64,000 bases of DNA. Origin: Steromphala cineraria. Lineage: Eukaryota; Mollusca; Gastropoda; Trochida; Trochidae. The position numbers were made by a program, and so were the translations under genes. This document shows positions 8,955 to 47,735 of the stretch, piece after piece. The notes under the pieces were generated by a model. The model made no database searches. It was not told where the DNA came from and was given only the letters and a program-made list of their open reading frames with translations. How positions within the stretch are numbered: the stretch's first letter is position 1; each line of letters starts with the position of its first letter. The stretch is from the NCBI GenBank assembly GCA_916613615.1, contig OU744736.1:9001724-9065723 (forward strand), written 5' to 3'.

Positions 8955-9310
8955 AATCTTTAGGTATACTTGTCACAACCTAAAAAACCTATGTTCATCT
9001 TTTTCTCCATTTCCAAAAGGCCTAGAGAGCTTAAACGTTATGTACAGACTCCTTGGCTAATGGGTATTCTAAATTGTAGATGTCGTGACCCCCTAACCGT
9101 AAATGGGGTCACAGGGGTCACTACCTTAAAAAGCTTTTTTCATCTTCTCCTCCAGTTCAAGAATGCCTAAAGAGCTGAAAAATTATGTGTAGACTCCTTG
9201 GCCAATGAAGATACTAAATTGTAGATTTGATTACCCCATGACCCCGAATGAGGTCATAGGGGTCAAAACCTTAAAAAAAGTGGGATGAGCTACAGAGCCC
9301 ATGACTCGTT
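8955..9310 (-). mobile_element. Modular hairpin-ended repeat, partial copy
   Basis: Contains two decayed modules of the family seen complete at 46,964-47,735 (AGCTTAAACGTT..GTACAGACTCCTTGGC, then a GGGGTCA/TGACCCC stretch) and ends with GATGAGCTACAGAGCCCATG, the family terminus. It is absent from the matching place in duplication copy 2 (about 20,600-20,670), so it arrived after the duplication. Non-coding. Confidence 0.6.
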
Positions 9311-22895: not shown

Positions 22896-24448
22896 CAGAT
22901 AACACTATGGGGGTCTTTAACCAACCAAATCACTAACAATGAGTACTGTTGGCCTTGTAAATAATCCTTACCCTTACCAATTACTAAACCCACATTGTAG
23001 CCGAGAGACACGTATCAAATACACACTGCAAAGAAACAATCATTTATACCGGAACCCACTCAGACCCTGTAGCTGTGAGCTCTGCAGATTTCCGTTCTCT
23101 TCCCTGTAAATCAACCCAGTTGCCAGCAGTCAACAAGGAACAATGAGATTGTAAGTTGAGGAAGTCTGAGGAATTAAGCAATCATTTTAAATATTGAATA
23201 TTGATATATTTGAATATCTTTTCTATATAATCACAAACGATTTATAAATTACAGTTGTTTACATAAACACAGCTATTTTTTTACATGCTATGTAGTGATG
23301 GAAAATCGTTTTTTACTTGTTATGGATCTGAACTTTCTTTATTCCACAATTCAATCATGTAATTAATGTCAAATGGGTATTGCACATATTATATATATTA
23401 AAAGAATTAAAAGGTGAACGTATAGACTCTCCTCATGTCCCAGAGTTATTTTTTTGAAGCTCAATACAATAAAAATTTTCCTGTATCAATTGTGCATATG
23501 GAAAAAAATATCAAATAGATAAGTCAATAAGTGTCCAACTATTTCGTAAATTTCCAAAGCATCGCAATTCAGTTTACAAAATAAGTGGTGCTCAATAAGT
23601 TGTTTCTGTTGTTCCTAGTTGCATGAAATATCAACAGCAAAACGCAAATTACTTTTAAAAAAAAGCTGTTTTAAGATAAACAAGATAAGAAAGATTTCAA
23701 ACATAAATAAAAAATAGAGCCATTGGCTCTGTAGCTCATCAGGCTTCATATTTAATTTTGCGCTGGCCAATGTGGTTTCCCATTTGTAGGGGCCACAAAG
23801 TCTCAAATCCTAAACTATATGTGATGTGATTTCAGACACCTGTAATCAATACAGAAATGGAAATATTTCATATCAGGATATTGGGATTATATTTTAACTG
23901 CAAACTTAGTTTGCAATGTAAGCCCATTGTGTTCTTTATGTGAAGACTTATTTCGCCATACTTGTGTAGACACTTGACATTGATTGAAGCTGCCTTAAAA
24001 TATAATCTTTCAACAGTAAACCTTTCCTTGTCAGAAATTTTCTAGGGAAGCACACATAAAATATCTCTTAAAATTGATACTTGTGACTTCTGTTGGTAGT
24101 TTTTAACTCTTTGATCTTTGATTATTCTATATTTTTAAGTGTAATATTTTCCTAATTTGGGTATTTTCTTTACTTTGCAGTGTTTTACCCCTTAAGAAGC
24201 CATACCATGGCCAGGATTACCTGTTCGACAGAACAAAGATGAAAATAGTTTTTTAGGGTGTGGTCCCTGGGGCCCTTATTAGGCACCACAGGACTACCAA
24301 AGCTTCAGTTTAAAATCCTCACTAGTCAAGGAGTCTGTACACAAAGTTTCAACGTTCTGGGCCTTGTGGTTCTGGAGAAGAAGATGAAAATAGGTTGTTA
24401 GGGCTTGGTCCCTGTGGCTCTTATTAGGGGTCACAGGGCCATCAAAGC

Positions 24449-24500
24449 GGCGAAACCGCATTATCGGTGGTTGGGCCTTTTCTAAGGGAAGTAACTCTGT
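24449..24500 (+). repeat. Left terminal inverted repeat of the fold-back element
   Basis: Pairs with 36,172-36,222. The first 15 bases are identical in complement, and a GGGAAGTAACTCTG core near the inner end is also identical. Similarity falls off after about 52 bp, until the satellites. Confidence 0.85.
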
Positions 24501-24726
24501 TTTCCCACTTTCATGCGGAGCTACGGCCGTTATTGACGTAGTCACGCGCGCAATGGATACTAATGGCGTGTCTGTATCCTATCTCCGTTACATTTTCCTT
24601 GATTTCTGGGTAAAATAGCACTTACAGTCGACAATAAATGTGATATAGGGTGAGTAGTTTTCCTAAGATTATGAGTATGTTTTGGGATAGTTCGTGTGAC
24701 AATTCCTAACTGAAGAATGATTGTTT

Positions 24727-24785
24727 CAAATGTGGGCCCACTGATTTTCATTTCCCTTATGCTCAGTCGACAGTGGGACCACAAT
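24727..24785. repeat. GTGGGCCCAC hairpin unit, left arm
   Basis: AATGTGGGCCCACTG at the left and CAGTGGGACCACA at the right form a hairpin of about 60 bp. Related units occur at 35,580-35,642 and 35,959-36,020 in the right arm, and a half unit at about 35,447-35,464. They look like tiny MITEs or an arm sub-repeat. Confidence 0.6.
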
Positions 24786-25178
24786 TACAGAATTCGAATT
24801 TTTCGAAAGGTTCAACGATTCTGTAATACTTGTGATGTATTGACATTCTATATATTTCCCATCAAGTAATTTTGATGGAAAAGGTTCACAGATATGCAAT
24901 ATTTCTGATGAAATATTAACGTGACTAATTCAAATAGTATTGTTGGAAAAGATTCAACATTCTAAAATATTTATGATTAAATACTGACGAGGCAATTTCA
25001 AATAGTTTTGATGGAAAAGGTTCATATCATTCTATGATATTTTCCATCATGTAATTTTGATTGAAAAGGTTCAACCACTGCATGAAAAGAAGTTCTTTAC
25101 AAGATATTTACAAAGGATTAAATATCTTGTAAAGTACTTATTTACAAGATATTTACAAAGATTAAAGTACTTATTTAC

Positions 25179-25323
25179 AAAAATAATCAAGGTAATAAAT
25201 ATCTATTAAAGATGATATTTACAAGATATTTATTATTTTGTAAATGTTTGTAAATGTTTGTAAAGGTTTGTAAAGTTTTGTAAATATCATCTTTAATAGA
25301 TATTTATTACCTTGATTATTTTT
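25179..25323. repeat. Perfect 44-bp inverted repeat hairpin
   Basis: Bases 25,179-25,222 and 25,280-25,323 are exact complements, separated by a 57-bp loop of TTTGTAAATG-type words. It lies at the outer edge of satellite A. Similar but less perfect TTTACAA-rich sequence lies at 35,090-35,250, the matching position of the right arm. Confidence 0.85.
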
Positions 25324-26270
25324 GACTTTGAAAAGTGATAATTGGCAAAATGTTGACTTTGAAAAGTAATAATTTGAAAAATGTTGACTTTGAAAAGTAA
25401 CACTTGGTGAAAAGTTGACTTTGAAAAGAAATAATTTGGTGAATGATGACTTTGTAAATAAATGATTTGTGAAATGTAGACTTTGAAAGAAATGATTTGA
25501 TGAAAGGATGTCTTTTGAAAGAAATAATTTGATGAAATGTTGAGTTTGAAAAGAATTAAGGTGAAATATTGACTTTAAAAGGTATTAATTTGAAGAAATG
25601 TTGGTTTTGGAAATTAATGATTTGATGAAGTGTTTACTTTCAAAAGTAATAATTTGGTGAAATGTTGACTTTGAAAACTGATATGTTTGAAGAAGTGTTG
25701 ACTTTGAAAAGAAATAATTGATGAAATGTTGATTTTAAAAAGTTATAAGTTGATGAAATGTTGAGTTTGAAGAGAAATAAATTGTGAAATGGTGACTTTG
25801 AAATAAATATTTTTTTTGAAATGTTGACTTTCAAAATAAATAATGGTGAAATGTTTACTTTCAAAAGTAATGATTTGGTAAAATGTTGACTTTGAAAACT
25901 GATATGTTTGAAGAAGTGTTGACTTTGAAAAGTAATAATTGGTGAAATGTTGACTTTGAAAAGAAATAATTTGAGGAAATGTTGATTTTAAAAAGTTATT
26001 AGTTGATGAAATATATTGAGTTTGAAGAGAAAAAAATATGAAATGACTTTGAAATAAATATTTTTTTTGAAATGTTGACTTTCAAAAGAAATAATGGTGA
26101 AATGTATACTTTGATATGTAATAATTTGATGAAATGTTGACTTTGAAAATTAATAATTTGATGGAATGTTGATTTTGAAAAGAAATAATGGTGAAATGTT
26201 TACTTTGATAAGTAAAAGTTCGGTGAAATGTTGACTTTGAAATATATAATTTGATGAAATGTTGACTTTA
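25324..26270 (+). repeat. Satellite A, left array (31-bp monomers)
   Basis: About 30 degenerate tandem monomers whose core is TGTTGACTTTGAAAAG. Successive GACTTT positions at 25,324, 25,355, 25,386, 25,417, 25,448 and 25,479 give a period of 31 bp. Non-coding despite short ORFs on the minus strand (25,640-25,864) made of repeated motifs. Confidence 0.9.
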
Positions 26271-26630
26271 AAAGGGGCAGAAGCACGTTTTTAGGGGGAA
26301 TATAAGGTGATGTCACGAAAATGAAAATTAATGGTTGCAATTGAAAAACAATGTATTTAAACTAAATGAAGTAGTAATAATTCAAATGTATAAGGTCAAG
26401 TTTAGCCATGCGACGACATTTTCTTACACAAAATGAATTAAAGGTGTTCACACAAAAATGGCCGCCAATGGATTTTATATGAAACTTCATACTTTGTCCT
26501 CTGACTATGGATGACTGGCTTTTGTAATGAGATTTTTGGCACTGTCAATATAATACATTTAGCAATAACTCACAATTATCAGTGAAATATCTTAAATATG
26601 AAATTATTAAAAAAGTGCTACTGCCCCTTT
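26271..26630. mobile_element. Small MITE nested between satellites A and B
   Basis: The inverted ends AAAGGGGCAGAAGCAC (26,271) and GTGCTACTGCCCCTTT (to 26,630) differ by one base, and the flanks share TTAA(A). About 360 bp, no ORF. It interrupts the left arm only, so it landed after the fold-back arms were formed. The TTAA-like target suggests a piggyBac-type or other TTAA-specific mobiliser, but this is tentative. Confidence 0.7.
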
Positions 26631-26639
26631 AAAAAGAAA

Positions 26640-28030
26640 TAACATTAATCTCAAAGACTATACCTGAATAAACAAACATTTATAAAGCAACTACCCGACA
26701 AATAAACTTGGCAAGTTTTCAAAAAATGTTTATCTTGGAGCATAAAATAGAAATCATCAATCTATCATCTGCTACCTGCTCTGACTCCAATACCCTCCTC
26801 GGTAAGTTAAACTACATCCAATTAACATAAATCTCAGATGACTAACCTGAATATACGAACACTTAACAAACATCTACCCGACAATTAAACTTGGCGAATT
26901 TTCAATAAATGTTTATCTTGGAGCATAGAGAAGAAATCATCAATCCATCGTCTGCTACCTGCTCTGACTCCAATACCCTCCTCGTTAAGTTTAACGACAT
27001 TCAATTAACAATAATCTCAGATGACTAAACTGAATATACAAACGCTTAACAAGCAACTACCCGACAATTAAGCTTGGCGAGTTTTCAATAAATGTTTAAT
27101 TGGAGCATAAAATAGAAACCATCAATCTATCTTCTGCTGCCTGCTCTGACTCCAATAATCTCCTCGTTAAGTTAAACTACATCCAATTAACATTAATCTC
27201 AAAGACTATACCTGAATATGCACACATTTAAAAAGCAACTACCCGACAATAAAACTTGACGAGTTTTCAATAAAGGTTTATCTTGGAGCATAAAATAGAA
27301 ATCATCAATCTATCATCTGCTACCTTCTCTGACTCCAATACCCTCCTCGTTAAGTTAAACTACATCCAATTAACATAAATCTCAGATGACTAAGCTGAAT
27401 ATACGAACACTTAACAAGCATCTACCCGACAATTAAACTTGGCGAGTTTTCAATAAATGTTTATCTTGGAGCATAGAGAAGAAATCATCAATCCATCGTC
27501 CGCTACCTGCTCTGACTCCAATCCCCTCCTCGTTAAGTTTAACGACATTCAATTAACAATAATCTCAGATGACTATACCTGAATATACAAACAACCAACA
27601 AGCATCTACCCGACAATTAAGCTTGGCGAGTTTTAAATAAATGTTTAATTGGAGCATAAAATAGAAATCATCAATCCATCATCTGCTACATGCTCTGACT
27701 CCAATACCCTCCTCGTTAAGTTAAACTACATCCAATTAACATTAATCTCAAAGACTATACCTTAATATACAAACATTTAAAAAGCAGCTTCCCGACAATT
27801 AAACTTGGCGAGTTTTCAATTAAAGTTTAATTGTAGCATAAAATAGAAATCATCAATCTATCATCTGCTATCTGCTCTGACTCCAATACCCTCTTCGTTA
27901 AGTTAAACTACATCCAATTAACATAAATCTCAGATGACTAACCTGAATATACAAACACTTAACAAACATCTACCCGACAATTAAACTTGGCCAGTTTTTA
28001 ATAAATGTTTATCTTGGAGCATTGAGTAGA
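26640..28030 (+). repeat. Satellite B, left array (183-bp monomers)
   Basis: About seven and a half monomers. The word CTGACTCCAA occurs at 26,781, 26,964, 27,146, 27,329, 27,512, 27,695 and about 27,877, giving a period of 182-183 bp. Alternate monomers share variants (for example GCATAGAGAAG versus GCATAAAATAG), suggesting growth by dimers in part. Non-coding. Confidence 0.92.
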
Positions 28031-29689
28031 AGTTAACACTCATACAGAATGACAATATGAAATTCCGACTTTCATTTTTTTTTTTAAATTCTTAAAATGT
28101 TCTGAAATTGATCAAAGTTTATTTTCAATTTATTCTAATATCAAATTATTATTGAATTATTGGCTATTTTGGGAGATGATAACTTTCATGAAATATTTAG
28201 TTTGAAGTTTAGTTTGATGTTGTTTAAAAGTTAACTTTGATAAATATGAAAAGTATGTTGTCTCTTTTTAATGTTTTTAGAATATATTTAAAGATATTCG
28301 AATTCAGTTAACATTCCCAATGAAAAATAATCCTTCATTGAGTATATTATTGTAAGTGTACAGTTAAACAATACGCTATACTCATTAGTGAATGAATGGT
28401 TTATTACCATGAAGATCACACAAAATGACATAGAAAAAAACAAAACAAATAAACATGTTTGATTATGGGAGCATGCGTAGACAGGTTTTGACACTCTTTC
28501 AAAATATCCACTGCAGTTGTTTATGTTCTTATGATAACAGTGATATAAACGTATCTAAAGATGGAAGTAATGAATATTATACATTGCTAAAAGATGGACA
28601 AACCATAATAAGATGAGCCACTTTGTCTTTTTAGCGAGCAAACAATGCTATTTTCATCAATCTATGGATTGTTATTCACCCTCTCTTTCTCAAATACCTG
28701 AACAACATGCAGTTAGCATAGTCTTAGATGACTTTTTCTGAATGAACAAATAATAACAATGCATCCGTCAATATTCATTTATTTACTCATTACCTCCGAA
28801 ATATATGTGGCAAATTAGGGTGATCCTCCTCGTGAGGGCCACATATCTCTCAATAAGAAAGTTCACATATATAAGTCGCTTGAAAGCACTTCTTGTCTTA
28901 TCGCTTCTACTTGTATTGCAATGAGGTCGCTTCGGTGATGTAGTTTGATGTATTTACCACATCGTCATCAAATGAATTCAGTGTCTTTTGACCAATCATC
29001 ATTAAAAGTCGAATCTAGATTTTACTACGGGTTTGATTCTCCCGCGAATAAATATCTAATCAGGCTCTAAAAATTAAATCACTATCATAATAGATTGACC
29101 TTGAAATAACACTGTCTCAAGATGCACGCCACTGATTGAAGCATAGCAATCGTAGAACAAACACGTGCATATGCTTTCATCGGACAAAAGTCTTCATGTA
29201 GCCACACCCCTGTTCAATACCCATTGAAACACCGTCTATTCCATGCCCACAGTTTGCTTTTTTTACTTAATATTTGCGTTTTTGCACAATATCCTCTTTG
29301 CATCTGTTATTCTGTCATGTGAAGGTGGAATGTTGTTTTTGCATTCTGAATTTATTTTTCAAAGTTGAGATTTAAGTACGTAAAATGTATCATAAAGATT
29401 CCCTTTTAAGTTGAGTATGTAATAATGTGACGTACTACATAAAAGGTTTAATAAGATGTTTGTGGGTTCAATAACATTTCAATAGGTCAATTAGAGCAAA
29501 ATTTTGTTTTTATCTTTGGTTGAATGTCTCACACCATCTCGGATCTGACATTACTAATACAAAATACATATTTTACATCATATGCAAAATTCATACAGGG
29601 ACAAAAGGGTATAGATATAACTACAATAAGTCAATCTGTTTAATCTGTAAAGTTACAGGACTTGCTCACCAGAAATATAGAACACGCCC
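28031..29689. other. Unique core of the fold-back element, left part
   Basis: No gene seen. AT-rich, with short chance ORFs only. The first part (to about 28,080) is inverted relative to 30,880-30,955, so the arms extend at least this far. Confidence 0.5.
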
Positions 29690-31190
29690 ATCACGTGTAA
29701 ACAGATTTAGGATATATTTACAAGCATTCGTATATAACAAGATATTTTTCAAAATTAGCATGTCAACCACATCAACAAAGTAACCAATTCATCAAAAGTA
29801 TCATCTCTCAATATAGCCAATAATTATGATGCATCTACTTTGGAAATCACTTGTGAACAATATAACAACTTCAGTGTCAACAACTTCCTAATTTCAAATA
29901 TATTTGAAAGTCAGAACTCATATTTTCATTTTGTATGAGTATTGATTTTTACTCTAAACCCCAAGATATACATTAAGTGAAAACTCGCCAAGCTTAATTG
30001 TCGTGTACTTGCTTGTTAAGTGTTTGTATATTCAGGTATAGTCATGTGAACTTTATGTTAATTGAATGTCGTTTAACTTAGCGAGGAGGGTATTGGAGTC
30101 AGAGCAGGTAGCAGAAGATAGATTGATAATTGTTACTCTATAATCCAAGATATACATTTAGTGAAAACTCGCCAAGCTTAATTGTCGGGGAGTTGCTTGT
30201 TGATTGTTTGTATATTCAGGTATAGTCATCTGAGATTATTGTTAATTGAATGTCGTTTAACTTAACGAGGAGGGTATCGGAGTCAGAGCATGTAGCAGAT
30301 GATAGATTGATGCAAATAGCATTGATTGCCCTTGAACAGGACGAAGGGGCCTAAAATAGTATATGGTAACATTTGAATTGGTAGATTTTACACAATAATG
30401 AATATTTCTATCAAGGTCAAAATGTTTTTGACGCTACATATTTACAAAATAAAATAATCCAAAGTAAACTTTCTTTCAGAAACATTGCAAATAAAAAGTC
30501 TCATTGAGAATATTTTTCTCAAAAATATGCAGTCATGAAATGAAAATTACTCAATACGTTTGCCCATGAAGCTGAACTTTAAAAAATACATCATCAATAT
30601 GTTCACAAAGTAGTTATCACAACAATTGTAATACAGACAAACTGAAAGACAATGATATCTATTCAACTTGCACTCGCTGGTTACATAATAAAAATAGATA
30701 ATAAAAATAGATTAAACGTTCACAAATAACAATTTTTTCTGAACTAGCATGTCAACAACATCAAACTATACTTCAAAGTAAACACTTCATCAAAATTATA
30801 AACCCTCCAAATAGCCCTTTTTCATACGGGCTATACTTTGGAAATAACCTTTGAACAATATGACAGCTTCAGAGCCAATAATGTACACCAAATTCAATTA
30901 TATTGGAAAGTCAGAATTTCAAATTTTCACTTTGTCTAAGCGTTAACTTCTCCAAGATAAACATTGATTAAAACTCTCCATGCTTGATTGTCAAGTAGTT
31001 ACATTAAATTGTTTGTATATTCAGGTATTATCATCTTATATATTGATTGAATGTCGTTAAACTTAACAAGACAGGTATTGGAGTCAGAGCAGGTAGCAGA
31101 CTATAGATTGATGCTAAGAGCATTGATATCCCTTTGACGGGACAAAGTGGCCTCAACTTTATATTGTTGAATTTGAATTGGTAAATTTTA
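29690..31190 (-). repeat. Satellite B, right side, inside a roughly 1-kb doubled block
   Basis: Reverse-orientation B monomers lie at about 29,960-30,310 (two copies, 184 bp apart at GGAGTCAGAG: 30,095 and 30,279) and 30,950-31,110 (one copy). The surrounding sequence is itself duplicated: 29,690-30,410 resembles 30,710-31,190, sharing AGCATGTCAAC.ACATCAA, TTGGAAAT, TATTGGAAAGTCAGAA-like and TTGAATTGGTA words. The right B array is thus much shorter than the left one. Confidence 0.75.
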
Positions 31191-32099
31191 CACATGAAGC
31201 AGTATGTCTTTCATAATCAAAATATCAGTGACACCATGATGTACATGGTAACATGATATAGTGTAATATACTATCAATGTGAATATGTCACCCAGACAAA
31301 GACAAGTACTACAGTATATCTTGCTGATCACTAATTTTAAACAACACAGAATCAATACCCTTACTATGATTAACAATAACATAAACAATAAGTTAATATT
31401 CAACTGAACCTAATTGCTTTCAATGTCAACATTTCAATAGAATCTTTTTTTACGAAATTAGGATTTATCTCCTCATTTTTTGTGTGTGTGGCAAATAAAG
31501 GATGTTTGTACAATACATTCGATGAGCCTTTAATGGGTAAAGATATTTGATTCTCATTATTTAGTTTATTGCACTAACAATAACATAACAGGTGCAGTGA
31601 CACACTGTGTTTATTAGGTAGTAAAGTGGTATGCATGCATGAAGACTTAACGAGCCTTTGGCTGAATCCTTGACATGTAGAATCTTGGCAATGTTTGATT
31701 GTCATTGCTTCTTTTTTCATTGTCAGTGAGGTCATGGGTTGCGCTTTTTTTGCAAATATGTTATAAATATATTATTTAAAAGTGTAAAGCTACATGTAAA
31801 AACCTTTTACATTGAGGATAACTGATTGGAACATAAAATCTTGAAATTCTATTTCTTATGATTATATCTAAACAATCAACAATTACGGTTGATTAATTAA
31901 TTAACAAATATGTTGTATTAAGTAGATGATTTGATTAAATGAAATCATCAATTCATTGATTCAACCTATTTCTCAAAATCATTAGATAAATCATGTTAAC
32001 TATTTAATACTTGGTTTTTCTAACAATAGGTCTACATCAGGTAGAGAATGCACCAAATGACGAAAAACCTTTCATTCTTTCATTATTGTCTACTCTTAT
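31191..32099. other. Unique core of the fold-back element, right part
   Basis: No gene or repeat was recognised. Very AT-rich, with only short unrelated ORFs. Confidence 0.45.
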
Positions 32100-32335
32100 G
32101 CCTGGGTGAGGATCCGGTGGGGTATCCGGCGCCGTATCAACTTTACAATCTTAATTCATTAGTTACTACTTAGTAAGTATTTAAAATAACAATGTACATT
32201 CTCCATATGTATCTACGCTGCAATCACCGTCCACCTGTATCACTTTTTGTATCACTTTATGTAACCGCCGATAAGTTGTGTAACTTAAGGTTAATAAAGA
32301 ATTGAATTGAATTGAATTGAAATTGACAATTTCTA
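32100..32335 (+). mobile_element. Probable 3' end of a LINE
   Basis: The segment begins with a GC-richer run (GGATCCGGTGGGGTATCC at 32,111) and ends with AATAAAGAATTGAATTGAATTG, a pentanucleotide tail typical of 3' ends of some non-LTR retrotransposons. No reverse-transcriptase sequence is attached, so only a 5'-truncated stub is present. Clade not determined. Confidence 0.5.
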
Positions 32336-32344
32336 ATACCTACT

Positions 32345-33242
32345 ATATATTTAACGTTTAAACACATTTAGACTAAAACAAGTTTTAAAGATCTATTGCA
32401 GTATTAGGTGTTTTATGTATCCGTCAAGAAACTAATGATGGACACCTCGCCGACAGGAAATTAAAAACTGCAACAACCGCTAACCTCAATCACTTTTCGA
32501 TTTACTTTCAAAGATATTTCAACTAAATAAGAACTGGGTGTGCTTTTTGTCAATTTGTCCAATAAACACCTTCAATTAGCTTTTTATTAACACTGCGTAG
32601 TTAACGGCTGTAAAAAACCTACCTGAGATAGGGGCCATAAAACTCGCGCGGGTGTGACGTAATAAACAGACTATATAGATTAGCGCATCATTAATTGAAC
32701 TGAAATACCGCCTTAAATAATTGTTTATTTACAAGTGATGTTGATATCTTTATTACTTCAAACGCTTAATAGTGTTACATCGTCAAATGACTAATCCAAC
32801 TGAGTGTTTAACATTTTCTGAAAACCGTTAATGAATTGGTTTATTTGGTGATCTCGTTAAGATATATGTATAGAGCTCGTTGTAATCATTCTGTATATAT
32901 GACGTCTCAAAAATGGCGTGTGACCAGTCATGCATTCACGGGTCTGTCGCGAGACAGATCTAGCTGCCCATCAAGTCGGCATTCAAAAACGGTTTTAGTT
33001 ACTAAACTGAACATAATTGAGTATCAACCTTTGACACACTATAAAATATTTAATCAGACATACTTATATTCAAAAGAAAATAGCAACATATGTTGTGGTT
33101 ATATGATGTTTAACATTTAAACACATTTACACTCAAACAAGTTTTAAAGATCTATTGCAGTGTAAGGTGTTTATATTTTATGTAAACGTCAATAAACTAT
33201 TGATGGACACCTCACCGACAGGAAATTAAAAACTGCAATGAG
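32345..33242 (+). repeat. Pair of direct repeats about 760 bp apart
   Basis: Segments 32,351-32,475 and 33,107-33,237 share AAGTTTTAAAGATCTATTGC and GATGGACACCTC.CCGACAGG. Between them is non-coding sequence with a short ORF (32,836-33,120) of no recognised type. Confidence 0.75.
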
Positions 33243-33407
33243 ATATTTTTTTAATTATTGTATTATTGTGTCACGCAAATGTTGACATGTCGTATACATA
33301 AAAATTAGCACCATATACATAAAACAACATTTGCCCGGCATACAAGATGGTCGATCCCAATGAACAGTGCTAGGGTAGGCTTTTACGCTGAGAGTTGATC
33401 CAGGCGT

Positions 33408-33965
33408 TGAGCCATGAAGCATATCAAGCATGAGCTAACGGCATTGCCATTCAATACACAATCAACATCTTAATTAATGAGATATTCCAACAGGTGTATT
33501 CGTTAAGCTACCTACAAGTGAGGGGAATTTAACTTCTAGTAAGCTGTTTGGATTCCTCAAATCAGTGATTAGTTTTTCTTTTTCTTATGAAAATGAGAAA
33601 ATATTTCACAAACTAAAGACAACAGTAAACATTTCCAGTATCTCATGATTAATTTTTCATCAAAAATTGTTTCAACGAAATCACCATTACAAATCTTCAT
33701 TCAACAACACAATGGATTTTATAAGTCTATGTTTTACAAAAGGTCAACATTTGAAATTATCAAATTTTCCTTAAAAGTTAATATTCCATCTGAAAAATCA
33801 ACACCCATTAAATGCGTAATGAATACATCGAACTGATTATGTAACAGCATTGTCACTCAATAGACAATCAACACCTTGACTAATGAGTTATTTAGCAAGT
33901 GTATTCGTTAAGCTACAACCTAATGAGTGGAAATAATTTCCAACAAGCTGTTTTCATTTTTCAAC
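33408..33965 (+). repeat. Pair of direct repeats about 390 bp apart
   Basis: 33,455-33,560 and 33,848-33,955 share GTGTATTCGTTAAGCTAC and an AAGCTGTTT word. They lie just outside the right satellite A array. Confidence 0.65.
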
Positions 33966-34009
33966 ACTGTATTTATTATTCATATTAGTTAAAATAAGGA
34001 AATTATCAA

Positions 34010-35095
34010 ATTATATCTTTTCTAAGTCATCATTTCACAAATTTCACAAAATATTTCTTTTTTTAAGTCAAAATGTCATCAAATTATTACTTTTCAAAGT
34101 AATTATTTCACCAAACTTATACGTTTTCAAAGTCTTCATATCATTCATTATTACTTTCCAAAGTCAACATTTAACAAAACGTATAAGTCAACATCTTATA
34201 AAATGTTCACGTTTCAAACTAAACATCTAATAAAATAATCACTTTTCAAAGTCACTATTTCATCAAATCATTTCCTTTCAAAGTCATCATTTCACCAATT
34301 ATTTCTTTTCAAATTCAACATTTCATCAAATTATTACTTTTCAAAGCATTTTTTCACTATTTCACCAACCTATTAGTTTCCAATGTCATCATTTCACTAA
34401 TTATTTCTCTTCAAATTTATCATTTCATCAAATGATTCCTCTTCAAGTCATAATTTCACCAAATTATTCCTATTCAGAGTCATCATTTAAACAAATTATC
34501 TCTTTTCAAAGCCCACATTTCGAAGAATTATATTTCTCTTCAAACTCAACAAATTCATCTTGTATTTCTTTTCAAAGTCAAAATTTCATGAAATCATCAC
34601 TTTTGAAAGTGAACATCTCATAAAATTTGTACTTTTCAAAGTTACCATTTGATGAAATTGTTGATATTTAAAGTAAAAATTTCATCAAATTATTTCTTTT
34701 TACAGTCAACATTTTACCAATCATCACTTTTCAAAGTCAAAACTTCACCAAACATATTAGTTTTCAAAGTCATCATTTCACTAATTGTTTCTCTTCAAAG
34801 TCATCATTTCACCAAATTATTACTTTTGAAAGTAAACATTTAATCAAATCATTAATTTCCAAAGCCAACATTTCTTCAAAATAATACCTTTCAAAGTCAA
34901 TATTTCCAACTTAATTTCTTTTCAAAATCAACATTTCATCAAATTATTTCTTTCAAAGATATCATTTCACAAATTATTTCTTTCCAAAGTCATCCTTTCA
35001 CAAATTATTTCTATCCAAAGTCAACATTTCATCAAATATTTCTTTCAAAGTCAACATTTACCAATTTTTTTACTTTCAAAGTCTACATTACAGAT
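34010..35095 (-). repeat. Satellite A, right array (reverse orientation)
   Basis: Tandem 31-32-bp monomers with core CTTTTCAAAGTCAACATTTC, the complement of the left array. The outer end grades into TTTACAAATATTTAC repeats (35,095-35,250), matching 25,100-25,330. Sparse, degenerate monomers reach back to about 33,640. Confidence 0.88.
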
Positions 35096-35446
35096 TAAAG
35101 ATGATATTTACAAATATTTACAAAAATTTACAAATATTTACAAATATTTACAAAAATTTACAAAGGATTAAAGATGATATTTACAAAGAAATAAATATCT
35201 TGTAAAGATGATATTTACAAAAAAATAAATATCTTGTAAAGGTAATAAATATCTTCATTTCACCCAGTGAACATTCTAAAATATTTTTGATTAAATACTG
35301 ACGATGCAAATTCAAATAGTTTTGATGGAAAATTAAGGTTCATGTTATTCTATGATATTTTCCATCAAGAAATTTTGATGGAAAAGTTTCAACAACATCA
35401 CTAGAACATTTCAGAGAAATTGATCATAAAATATAGTATTTTGGTA

Positions 35447-36020
35447 AATGTGGGCCCACTCGTTTCGACCTCTATAAGGAGCTCCCGAAGTGGTTAAATT
35501 TTGACTAAGCAAATTTAATTAGTTTTGATGGAAAAGGTTCAACATTCAAGATGATATTTCCCATCAAGATCAATAATCTGAAATGTGGGCCCACTTCGGC
35601 CGCTCCCTATAAGAGACCAAACGAGTGGGCCCACATTTACCGAAAGACATTATTTGGTGATCAATATCTCTTAACATGGTCGATCAATGTCACGACCCTT
35701 GACCTAGGTCCTGACCTTTGATGTGACCAATGACAGGACATCACTCATTAATATGCATGAGCTGTGTCTTCTTTTCGCGGAGAATTTTAATGTCGTTTCT
35801 GATGGGAAAAAAACAAGAATAATATTCATTGGTAATGTTTATTTCGTATGAAAACATAAGAGTACTGTTTCTAGAATGTTTCCCCTCCAAATAAGTTACT
35901 TTTTCTACTGATACACGCTTGTCAAATATGCGAAATCGTCGGTAGACCGTGATGATAACAAATGTGGGCCCACGTATCTCGGCTCTATAAAGGAACCAGT
36001 TCAAGTGGGCCCACATTTAC
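35447..36020. repeat. GTGGGCCCAC hairpin units, right arm
   Basis: Two complete units at about 35,580-35,642 and 35,959-36,020, each opening AAATGTGGGCCCAC and closing GTGGGCCCACATTT around a loop with a TATAAAG/TATAAGAG word, plus a half unit at 35,447. They are the only GC-rich islands in this part of the element. Confidence 0.7.
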
Positions 36021-36171
36021 GATTACCCAGAAGATGAGGGAACTTTGCTGATAAAGTCACTATTACTAAAACATGATAAACGTACTTAGTACTAGCATGT
36101 CTTAATTTACTTGTAATCAATTATTTAATTGTGAATACGGAACTAAGTGGCATAGCTTCCATAGGTTCAAT

Positions 36172-36222
36172 CAGAGTTACTTCCCTTAGAAAGTCCCCAA
36201 CCACCGCTAATGCGGTTTCGCC
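36172..36222 (-). repeat. Right terminal inverted repeat of the fold-back element
   Basis: Complement of 24,449-24,500; ends TAATGCGGTTTCGCC directly against the duplicated target ATCAAAGC. Confidence 0.85.
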
Positions 36223-36761
36223 ATCAAAGCTATAATTCAAAATGCTCTCTAGTCAAGGAGTCTGTAAACACAATTTCAGCTTTCTAGGCCTCATGGTTCT
36301 GGAGAAGAAGATGAAAATAGGTTTTTAGGGCGCGGCCCCTGTGGCCCTTATTAGGGGTCACAGGACCACCAAAGCTACAATTTATAATCCTCACTAGTCA
36401 AGGAGTCTGTACACACAATTTCAGCTTTCTAGGCCTCATGGTTCTGGAGAAGAAGATGAAAATAGGTTTTTAGGGAGTGGTCCCTGTGGCCCTTATTAGG
36501 GGTCACAGGGCCACCAAAGCTACAACTTTTAATCCTCACTAGCCAAGGAGTATGTACACAAAGTTTTAGGTTTCTTGGCCTCATGGTTCTGGGGAAGAAG
36601 ATCAAAATAGGTTTTTAGGGTGTGGCCCCTGTGGCCCTTATTAGGGGTCACAGGGCCACCAAAGCTACAATTTTTAATCCTCACTAGCCAAGGAGTATGT
36701 ACACAAAGTTTTAGGTTTCTAGGCCTTATGGTTCTGGAGAAGAAGTCGAAATTCCACAAAG

Positions 36762-46963: not shown

Positions 46964-47735
46964 TAGCTCATCAGGCCTGAAAGGCCAGATGGGCTTATGG
47001 CATGGCCCGTCGTCCGGCGTCCGGCGTCCGTCGTCCGTCCGTCGTCTGTAAACTTTTGACACTTTCGACTTCTCCTCATAACCCATATACACTTGAGAGC
47101 TGTACACTTGAGAGCTTGAGAGGTACCTTGGCATGTGGGGATTCTGATTTGTAACTTTGGTGACCCTGTGACCCCAATTTAGGGCCACAGGGGCCACGCC
47201 CTTAAAACTTATTTTCATCTTCTTGTCCAGCAGCAGAAGCCCAAGAGAGCTGAAATTTTATGTACAGGCACCTTGGCATATGGGGATTCTAATTTGTAAC
47301 TTTTGTGACCCTGTGACCCCAATTTAGGGCCACAGGGGCCACGCCCTTAAAACTTATTTTCATCTTCTTCTCCAGAAGCAGAAGCCCAAGAGAGCTGAAA
47401 GTTTTATCTTTTTCTTCAGAAGCATACGGCCTAGAAAGCTAAAACTTTGTGTACAGACTCCTTGACTAGTGAGGATTATAAATTGTAGCTTTGGTGGCCC
47501 TGTGGCCCCTAATAAGGGCCTAAGGGACCATGCCCTTAAAACCTATTTTCATCTACCTCTCTAGAAGCAGAAGGCCTAGAAAGCTGAAACTTTGTGTACA
47601 AACTTCTTATCTAGTGAGGATTATAAATTGTAGCTTTGGTTGCCCCATGGCCCCTACTAAGGGGGCACCACATTGGCCACACCTTATAGCGAAATCAAAT
47701 GTAAAGCCTGATGAGGTACAGAGCCCATGGCTCTA
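46964..47735 (-). mobile_element. Complete modular hairpin-ended repeat
   Basis: Bounded by TAGCTCATCAGGCCTGAAAGG (hairpin) at 46,964 and GAGCCCATGGCTCTA (hairpin) to 47,735. Four or so degenerate modules each carry a CTTAAAAC.TATTTTCATCTTC run, an AGAAAGCTGAAA..GTACAGACTCC run and a GGGGTCACAGGG-like run. A GTCC/GTCG-rich microsatellite lies near the left end. No ORF. Such modular repeats are, from memory, abundant in molluscs; their mobilising enzyme is not evident here. Confidence 0.75.

Follow-up and report, generated by a model that had tools for sequence, protein, structure and literature searches.

CACTA transposons generate 3-bp target duplications, and mirrored terminal or subterminal tandem repeats are an ordinary trait of these elements (PMC8978399). 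In the plant Chenopodium, the CACTA element Jozin combines mirrored terminal tandem repeats and a 3-bp duplication with a nucleosome-sized internal satellite in some of its copies, 32.5 monomers of 171 bp being present in a 16.5-kb element (PMC8978399). Animal members of the superfamily, SmTRC1 among them, possess a transposase gene and 2-bp duplications (7 of 14 copies), and no satellite arms are described for them in the text examined (PMC1636069). Arms built of tandem repeats are known from Tetris, a non-coding fold-back element of Drosophila virilis, in which inverted arms of repeats of about 220 bp, variable in number, feed satellite arrays (PMC4079207). In the Pacific oyster, the non-autonomous Helentrons termed Cg_HINE scatter satellite-like arrays through the genome (PMC7492417). 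Here we describe a related arrangement from a gastropod mollusc, Steromphala cineraria, in a stretch of 64,000 nucleotides (contig OU744736.1 of assembly GCA_916613615.1, positions 9,001,724 to 9,065,723; hereafter the window, to which all coordinates refer, on the forward strand unless a feature is called inverted). With a probability of roughly 0.9, we interpret the block at 24441..36230 as two nested elements, in which a 10,194-bp transposon, likely a non-autonomous member of CACTA/EnSpm, sits within a 1.6-kb transposon likely to be of the Merlin type.

The original prediction was of a single 11.8-kb fold-back transposon, likened to the FB and Galileo elements, with exact 8-bp target duplications, matching inverted ends and arms made of 31-bp and 183-bp satellites in the mirror order A-B...B'-A'. 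Each of these features is present: ATCAAAGC occurs at 24441..24448 and 36223..36230, its only two positions on the forward strand of the window (there are none on the opposite strand), the inverted ends beginning GGCGAAACC extend over 54 bp at 90.7% identity, and self-comparison confirms the mirrored arrays. However, the duplications and inverted ends do not bound the array-bearing element, but belong to a separate 1.6-kb transposon. Key to this result is an uninterrupted copy elsewhere in the genome (locus L019, 1,596 bp), which splits in two when aligned to the window, bases 1-627 falling on 24449..25075 (97.9% identity) and bases 625-1596 on 35270..36222 (95.9%). Because the two pieces overlap by 3 bp, AAC, found at 25073..25075 and again at 35270..35272, is the target duplication of another insertion, 10,194 bp long (25076..35269), which reads CACTG...CAGTG. 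The outer transposon is accordingly divided into a left part opening with GGCGAAACC and a right part ending in GGTTTCGCC, and arrays A, B, B' and A' all lie wholly within the inner insertion.

Searches of the genome carrying the window (1.27 Gb, 281 contigs) returned other copies with the same ends for the outer and inner elements alike. With 101-bp queries from the two outer ends, 376 and 362 candidates were found, 40 of which were scored for each end. From the fetched loci, 27 distinct other outer copies were extracted, a step requiring a match from base 1 and both ends inside the locus. This excluded L006, L010 and L024, whereas other truncated loci were retrieved anew in full. These copies measure 1,515-2,780 bp, with 19 of the 27 within 1,515-1,613 bp, and share 92.4-99.5% identity with the outer parts in the window. 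Where the flanks were long enough, 8-bp duplications were exact at 21 of 24 sites and differed by one mismatch at the other three, compared with 0 exact among 552 mismatched flank pairings serving as a control; this count omits L005, L012, L013 and L015, where the flank on one side is shorter than 8 bp, L005 being the element of L020, which is counted. Array A, array B and inner-end sequence are absent from all 27 copies. A lack of further copies sharing the ends, which would have counted against the prediction, was seen for neither element.

The inner element possesses equally sharp boundaries of its own. Its left end (first 255 bp) has 418 candidates in the genome, and the 40 that were scored, window included, all start exactly at the first base (25076); its right end (last 180 bp) has 421, and of the 40 scored there, 39 are 100% identical to the query over its full 180 bases and the remaining one matches 179 from the tip. 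Ten other paired copies, nine taken from the left- and right-end lists and one (C38) paired by combining the right-end list with locus L042, span 8.1 to 17.6 kb by their end coordinates, and all ten show CACTG...CAGTG with exact 3-bp duplications (ATT, TAT, TGG, TAT, AAT, AAT, GGG, TGT, ATA and AAA; eight different sequences). When the 64 outer places and 80 inner ends listed are compared, they coincide in the window alone, the next nearest pair being 83 kb apart. The outer and inner elements are separate dispersed families that differ in their ends and duplications, and it is as the inner family that the predicted dispersed transposon with two different satellites in opposed halves exists.

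The satellite arms belong to this inner family, with the layout A-B-core-B'-A'. Array A (25322..26274, 31-32-bp monomers) occupies the left subterminal region and is followed by array B (26640..28022, 7.6 copies of a 183-bp monomer), a core in which no coding frame was recognised (28023..29940), array B' consisting of two inverted 183-bp monomers (29945..30311), a degenerate third inverted B' unit (about 30950-31113) and, in the right subterminal region, array A' of inverted 31-32-bp monomers (34212..35089, with weaker similarity reaching about 34007). A and A' share about 75% identity across 1 kb, and B and B' about 85-88%. The 183-bp repeat gave 418 candidates, of which 40 were scored, and the eight best-matching loci were fetched, one being the window's own. 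In six of the other seven, the alignment runs from the left subterminal sequence across A and on into B (for L039 as overlapping segments), and two of these loci, L039 and L041, include the inner tip itself. L038, the seventh, diverges from the window sequence at 25965. No free 183-bp array was found among these eight best matches. Sequence beyond array B is shared as well: 8 kb of the C2 copy contain both core and B' at 95-97% identity (L067, with 97% for the core part from 29295), and 8 kb from the C39 copy contain the core at 96.7%. The length of array B varies by place, from about 4 to 15 monomers as lower bounds (34 of the 40 scored places). These data establish a spread in length and cannot show whether the steps are whole monomers, given that the query is two monomers long and necessarily divides its matches into whole-monomer units.

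Both insertions have a recognisable empty site. When the flanks of the outer element are joined across one ATCAAAGC, they align gap-free with three neighbouring monomers of a 145-bp satellite (36220..36745) along all 150 of 150 bases, with identities of 91, 87 and 85%; this empty site is a satellite paralogue and not an allele. The empty site of the inner element is represented by the uninterrupted outer copies. Within the genome searched, an empty site is therefore present for each of the two elements. Because the joined flanks match satellite monomers, the 145-bp satellite is placed first, the outer element second and the inner element third. The outer element inserted in the satellite, duplicating ATCAAAGC, and the inner element later inserted in the outer one, duplicating AAC.

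The inner element is likely to be a non-autonomous CACTA/EnSpm transposon. A 3-bp target duplication flanks it in the window and in every other paired copy checked, and A and A' adjoin its two ends in mutually inverted orientation, as direct and inverted subterminal repeats. The terminal inverted repeat (TIR) of the superfamily starts CACTA, with CACTG as a variant; the CACTG/CAGTG tips of the window and of all ten other paired copies are an uncertain match to it. The entire block holds no open reading frame above 129 amino acids, and a Pfam scan of nine open frames of the inner element gave no match above cut-off (one, with an E-value of 0.049, lay below its cut-off). Being without a recognisable gene, the element would move in trans, and a CACTA transposase may supply this activity. 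A motif present in both tips, TGAAA(A/T)G, is repeated 26 times in A and 19 times in A', directed inward and with no occurrence on the other strand, compared with shuffle maxima of 11 and 9, respectively. Because both arrays repeat this motif above the shuffle maxima, it is plausible from the sequence that A and A' could be subterminal repeats bound by a CACTA transposase or its accessory protein. The 183-bp array may in turn have been spread as cargo through transposition and re-sized inside the dispersed copies by unequal exchange or slippage. The full proposal, in which an animal CACTA element would have amplified its tip motif into 31-bp arms serving as oversized transposase-binding platforms, and would both spread a mirrored nucleosome-sized satellite and alter its length from locus to locus, is a tentative one that we regard as rather less than probable.

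A single 11.8-kb fold-back element with GGCGAAACC ends, of which the 1.6-kb copies would be internal-deletion derivatives, would account for the exact 8-bp duplications and mirrored satellite arms of the window, and arms of tandem repeats do occur in fold-back elements such as Tetris (PMC4079207). Such an element should nevertheless carry its arms between the ends that share the 8-bp duplication, and here the arms are found in an element with 3-bp duplications and CACTG/CAGTG ends at the internal junctions; the 10-kb unit carries its own 3-bp duplications at all ten other loci checked, and outer and inner ends meet solely in the window among the places listed. With 27 other outer copies devoid of satellites, and inner copies elsewhere possessing their own ends, we reject this explanation as almost certainly wrong, and the likeness to FB and Galileo gives way to features of the carrier that point to CACTA/EnSpm. 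A different possibility, that the inner element, a true transposon generating 3-bp duplications, belongs to another superfamily with CAC-like ends, or to a new one, deserves more weight and is still unlikely. In its favour are tips reading CACTG and not CACTA, short and imperfect (14 of 17 bases), the lack of any PF02992 transposase linked to the listed ends, and the 2-bp duplications reported for animal CACTA elements (PMC1636069). Against it, the duplications found here differ from the TWA target of PIF/Harbinger and, in their length of 3 bp, from the duplications of Transib (5 bp) and Chapaev (4 bp). Moreover, 3-bp duplications combined with mirrored subterminal repeats are CACTA traits (PMC8978399).

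The assignment of the outer element leaves more room for an alternative. Merlin elements are described with 5'-GG ends, TIRs of 24-462 bp and 8-9-bp duplications (PMC8101967), and the outer element agrees on all three counts, with its GGCGAAACC ends, 54-bp TIR and 8-bp duplications; it is likely a Merlin relative. The genome also holds 82 matches to PF12762 (DDE_Tnp_IS1595, the Merlin-type transposase). Target duplications of 8 bp are also compatible with hAT, P and Mutator elements. The outer ends have no associated transposase among the listed places, transposases of hAT, P and Mutator were not searched for, and an origin in one of these three superfamilies is a substantial possibility, which we place somewhat short of even. 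Several observations weigh against the combined picture of a CACTA-like element with binding-platform arms inside a Merlin-like one. Neither family could be tied to a transposase by co-location with its listed ends: the closest PF12762 match lies 201 kb from any of the 64 listed outer places, the closest PF02992 (Transposase_21, CACTA) match lies 110 kb from any of the 80 listed inner ends, and inner-element sequence is absent from the 6 kb covered at the PF02992 locus L066. Furthermore, the inner tips depart from CACTA and match each other at just 14 of 17 positions, animal CACTA elements are reported with 2-bp and not 3-bp duplications (PMC1636069), and each end search scored only 40 of its 376-421 candidates. 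The motif TGAAA(A/T)G was chosen after inspection, as a shorter form of the tip motif, and the fuller form TGAAA(A/T)GAAG, present in both tips, has no occurrence in A or A'.

Read as a CACTA-like transposon, the inner element differs from each of its closest described counterparts. Jozin, from a plant, possesses a transposase gene and has a single satellite array close to its 3' end (PMC8978399), whereas no gene was recognised in the inner element and its 183-bp satellite is mirrored in both halves. Tetris has 8-10-bp duplications and long true TIRs (PMC4079207), in contrast to the 3-bp duplications, short tips and two different satellites per arm seen here. Cg_HINE elements are Helentrons with central repeats (PMC7492417), unlike an element with inverted ends, 3-bp duplications and mirrored arrays. 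Among the titles and abstract openings of the open-licence literature we found no molluscan CACTA element bearing mirrored satellites (repeat databases were not part of the search), and within that literature the combination seen here, two mirrored satellites in one non-coding CACTA-like element, appears to be new. The locus has a corrective value, in that target duplications and satellite arms that look joined derive from two unrelated transposons, and it provides a clean example of a CACTA-like transposon, itself non-coding, that carries a nucleosome-sized satellite to numerous sites across a 1.27-Gb genome. This makes the seeding of satellites by a cut-and-paste element testable through array sizes and empty sites across individuals.

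The genome holds 60 matches to PF02992. One family with a 419-amino-acid open frame (L066), the ends of which were not found, scores equally at 18 places and nearly equally at one more, and this agreement in score suggests that CACTA movement has been recent in this genome. The two longest paired inner copies were considered as candidate autonomous elements and rejected on the stretches seen (8 kb, about half, of each), in which six open frames yielded only retrotransposon domains and sub-cut-off matches. Within the 16.0-kb copy lies a non-long-terminal-repeat retrotransposon (L065:62-3853) with a 1,264-amino-acid frame encoding reverse transcriptase and endonuclease domains, which constitutes a further layer of nesting. 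The 17.6-kb copy has a 2.6-kb insert in its core together with part of another reverse transcriptase.

Between arrays A and B, the window contains a stretch of about 370 bp (26268-26636) resembling a miniature inverted-repeat transposable element, with inverted ends AGGGGCAGAAGCAC and AGGGGCAGTAGCAC. It is common to the other inner copies whose alignments cross it, and is therefore either an old insertion or a fixed part of the element. Two 183-bp arrays on C37 (13320995-13323558 and 13435621-13438184), 115 kb apart, are equal in length and match scores, which suggests a larger segmental duplication. In the outer family, no transposase gene was seen in the copies fetched, as far as these extend. 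Identical outer copies at L029:3720-5481 and L029:8032-9793 lie 4.3 kb apart, and because both carry one 8-bp duplication sequence, a local segmental duplication is suggested over two insertions. The right part of the outer element in the window includes an imperfect palindrome of ~270 bp (35404-35674, about 70%) with repeated GTGGGCCCAC motifs. Finally, related 145-bp satellite forms short arrays at 8972-9277, 24236-24440, 36220-36745 and 47121-47661 of the window.

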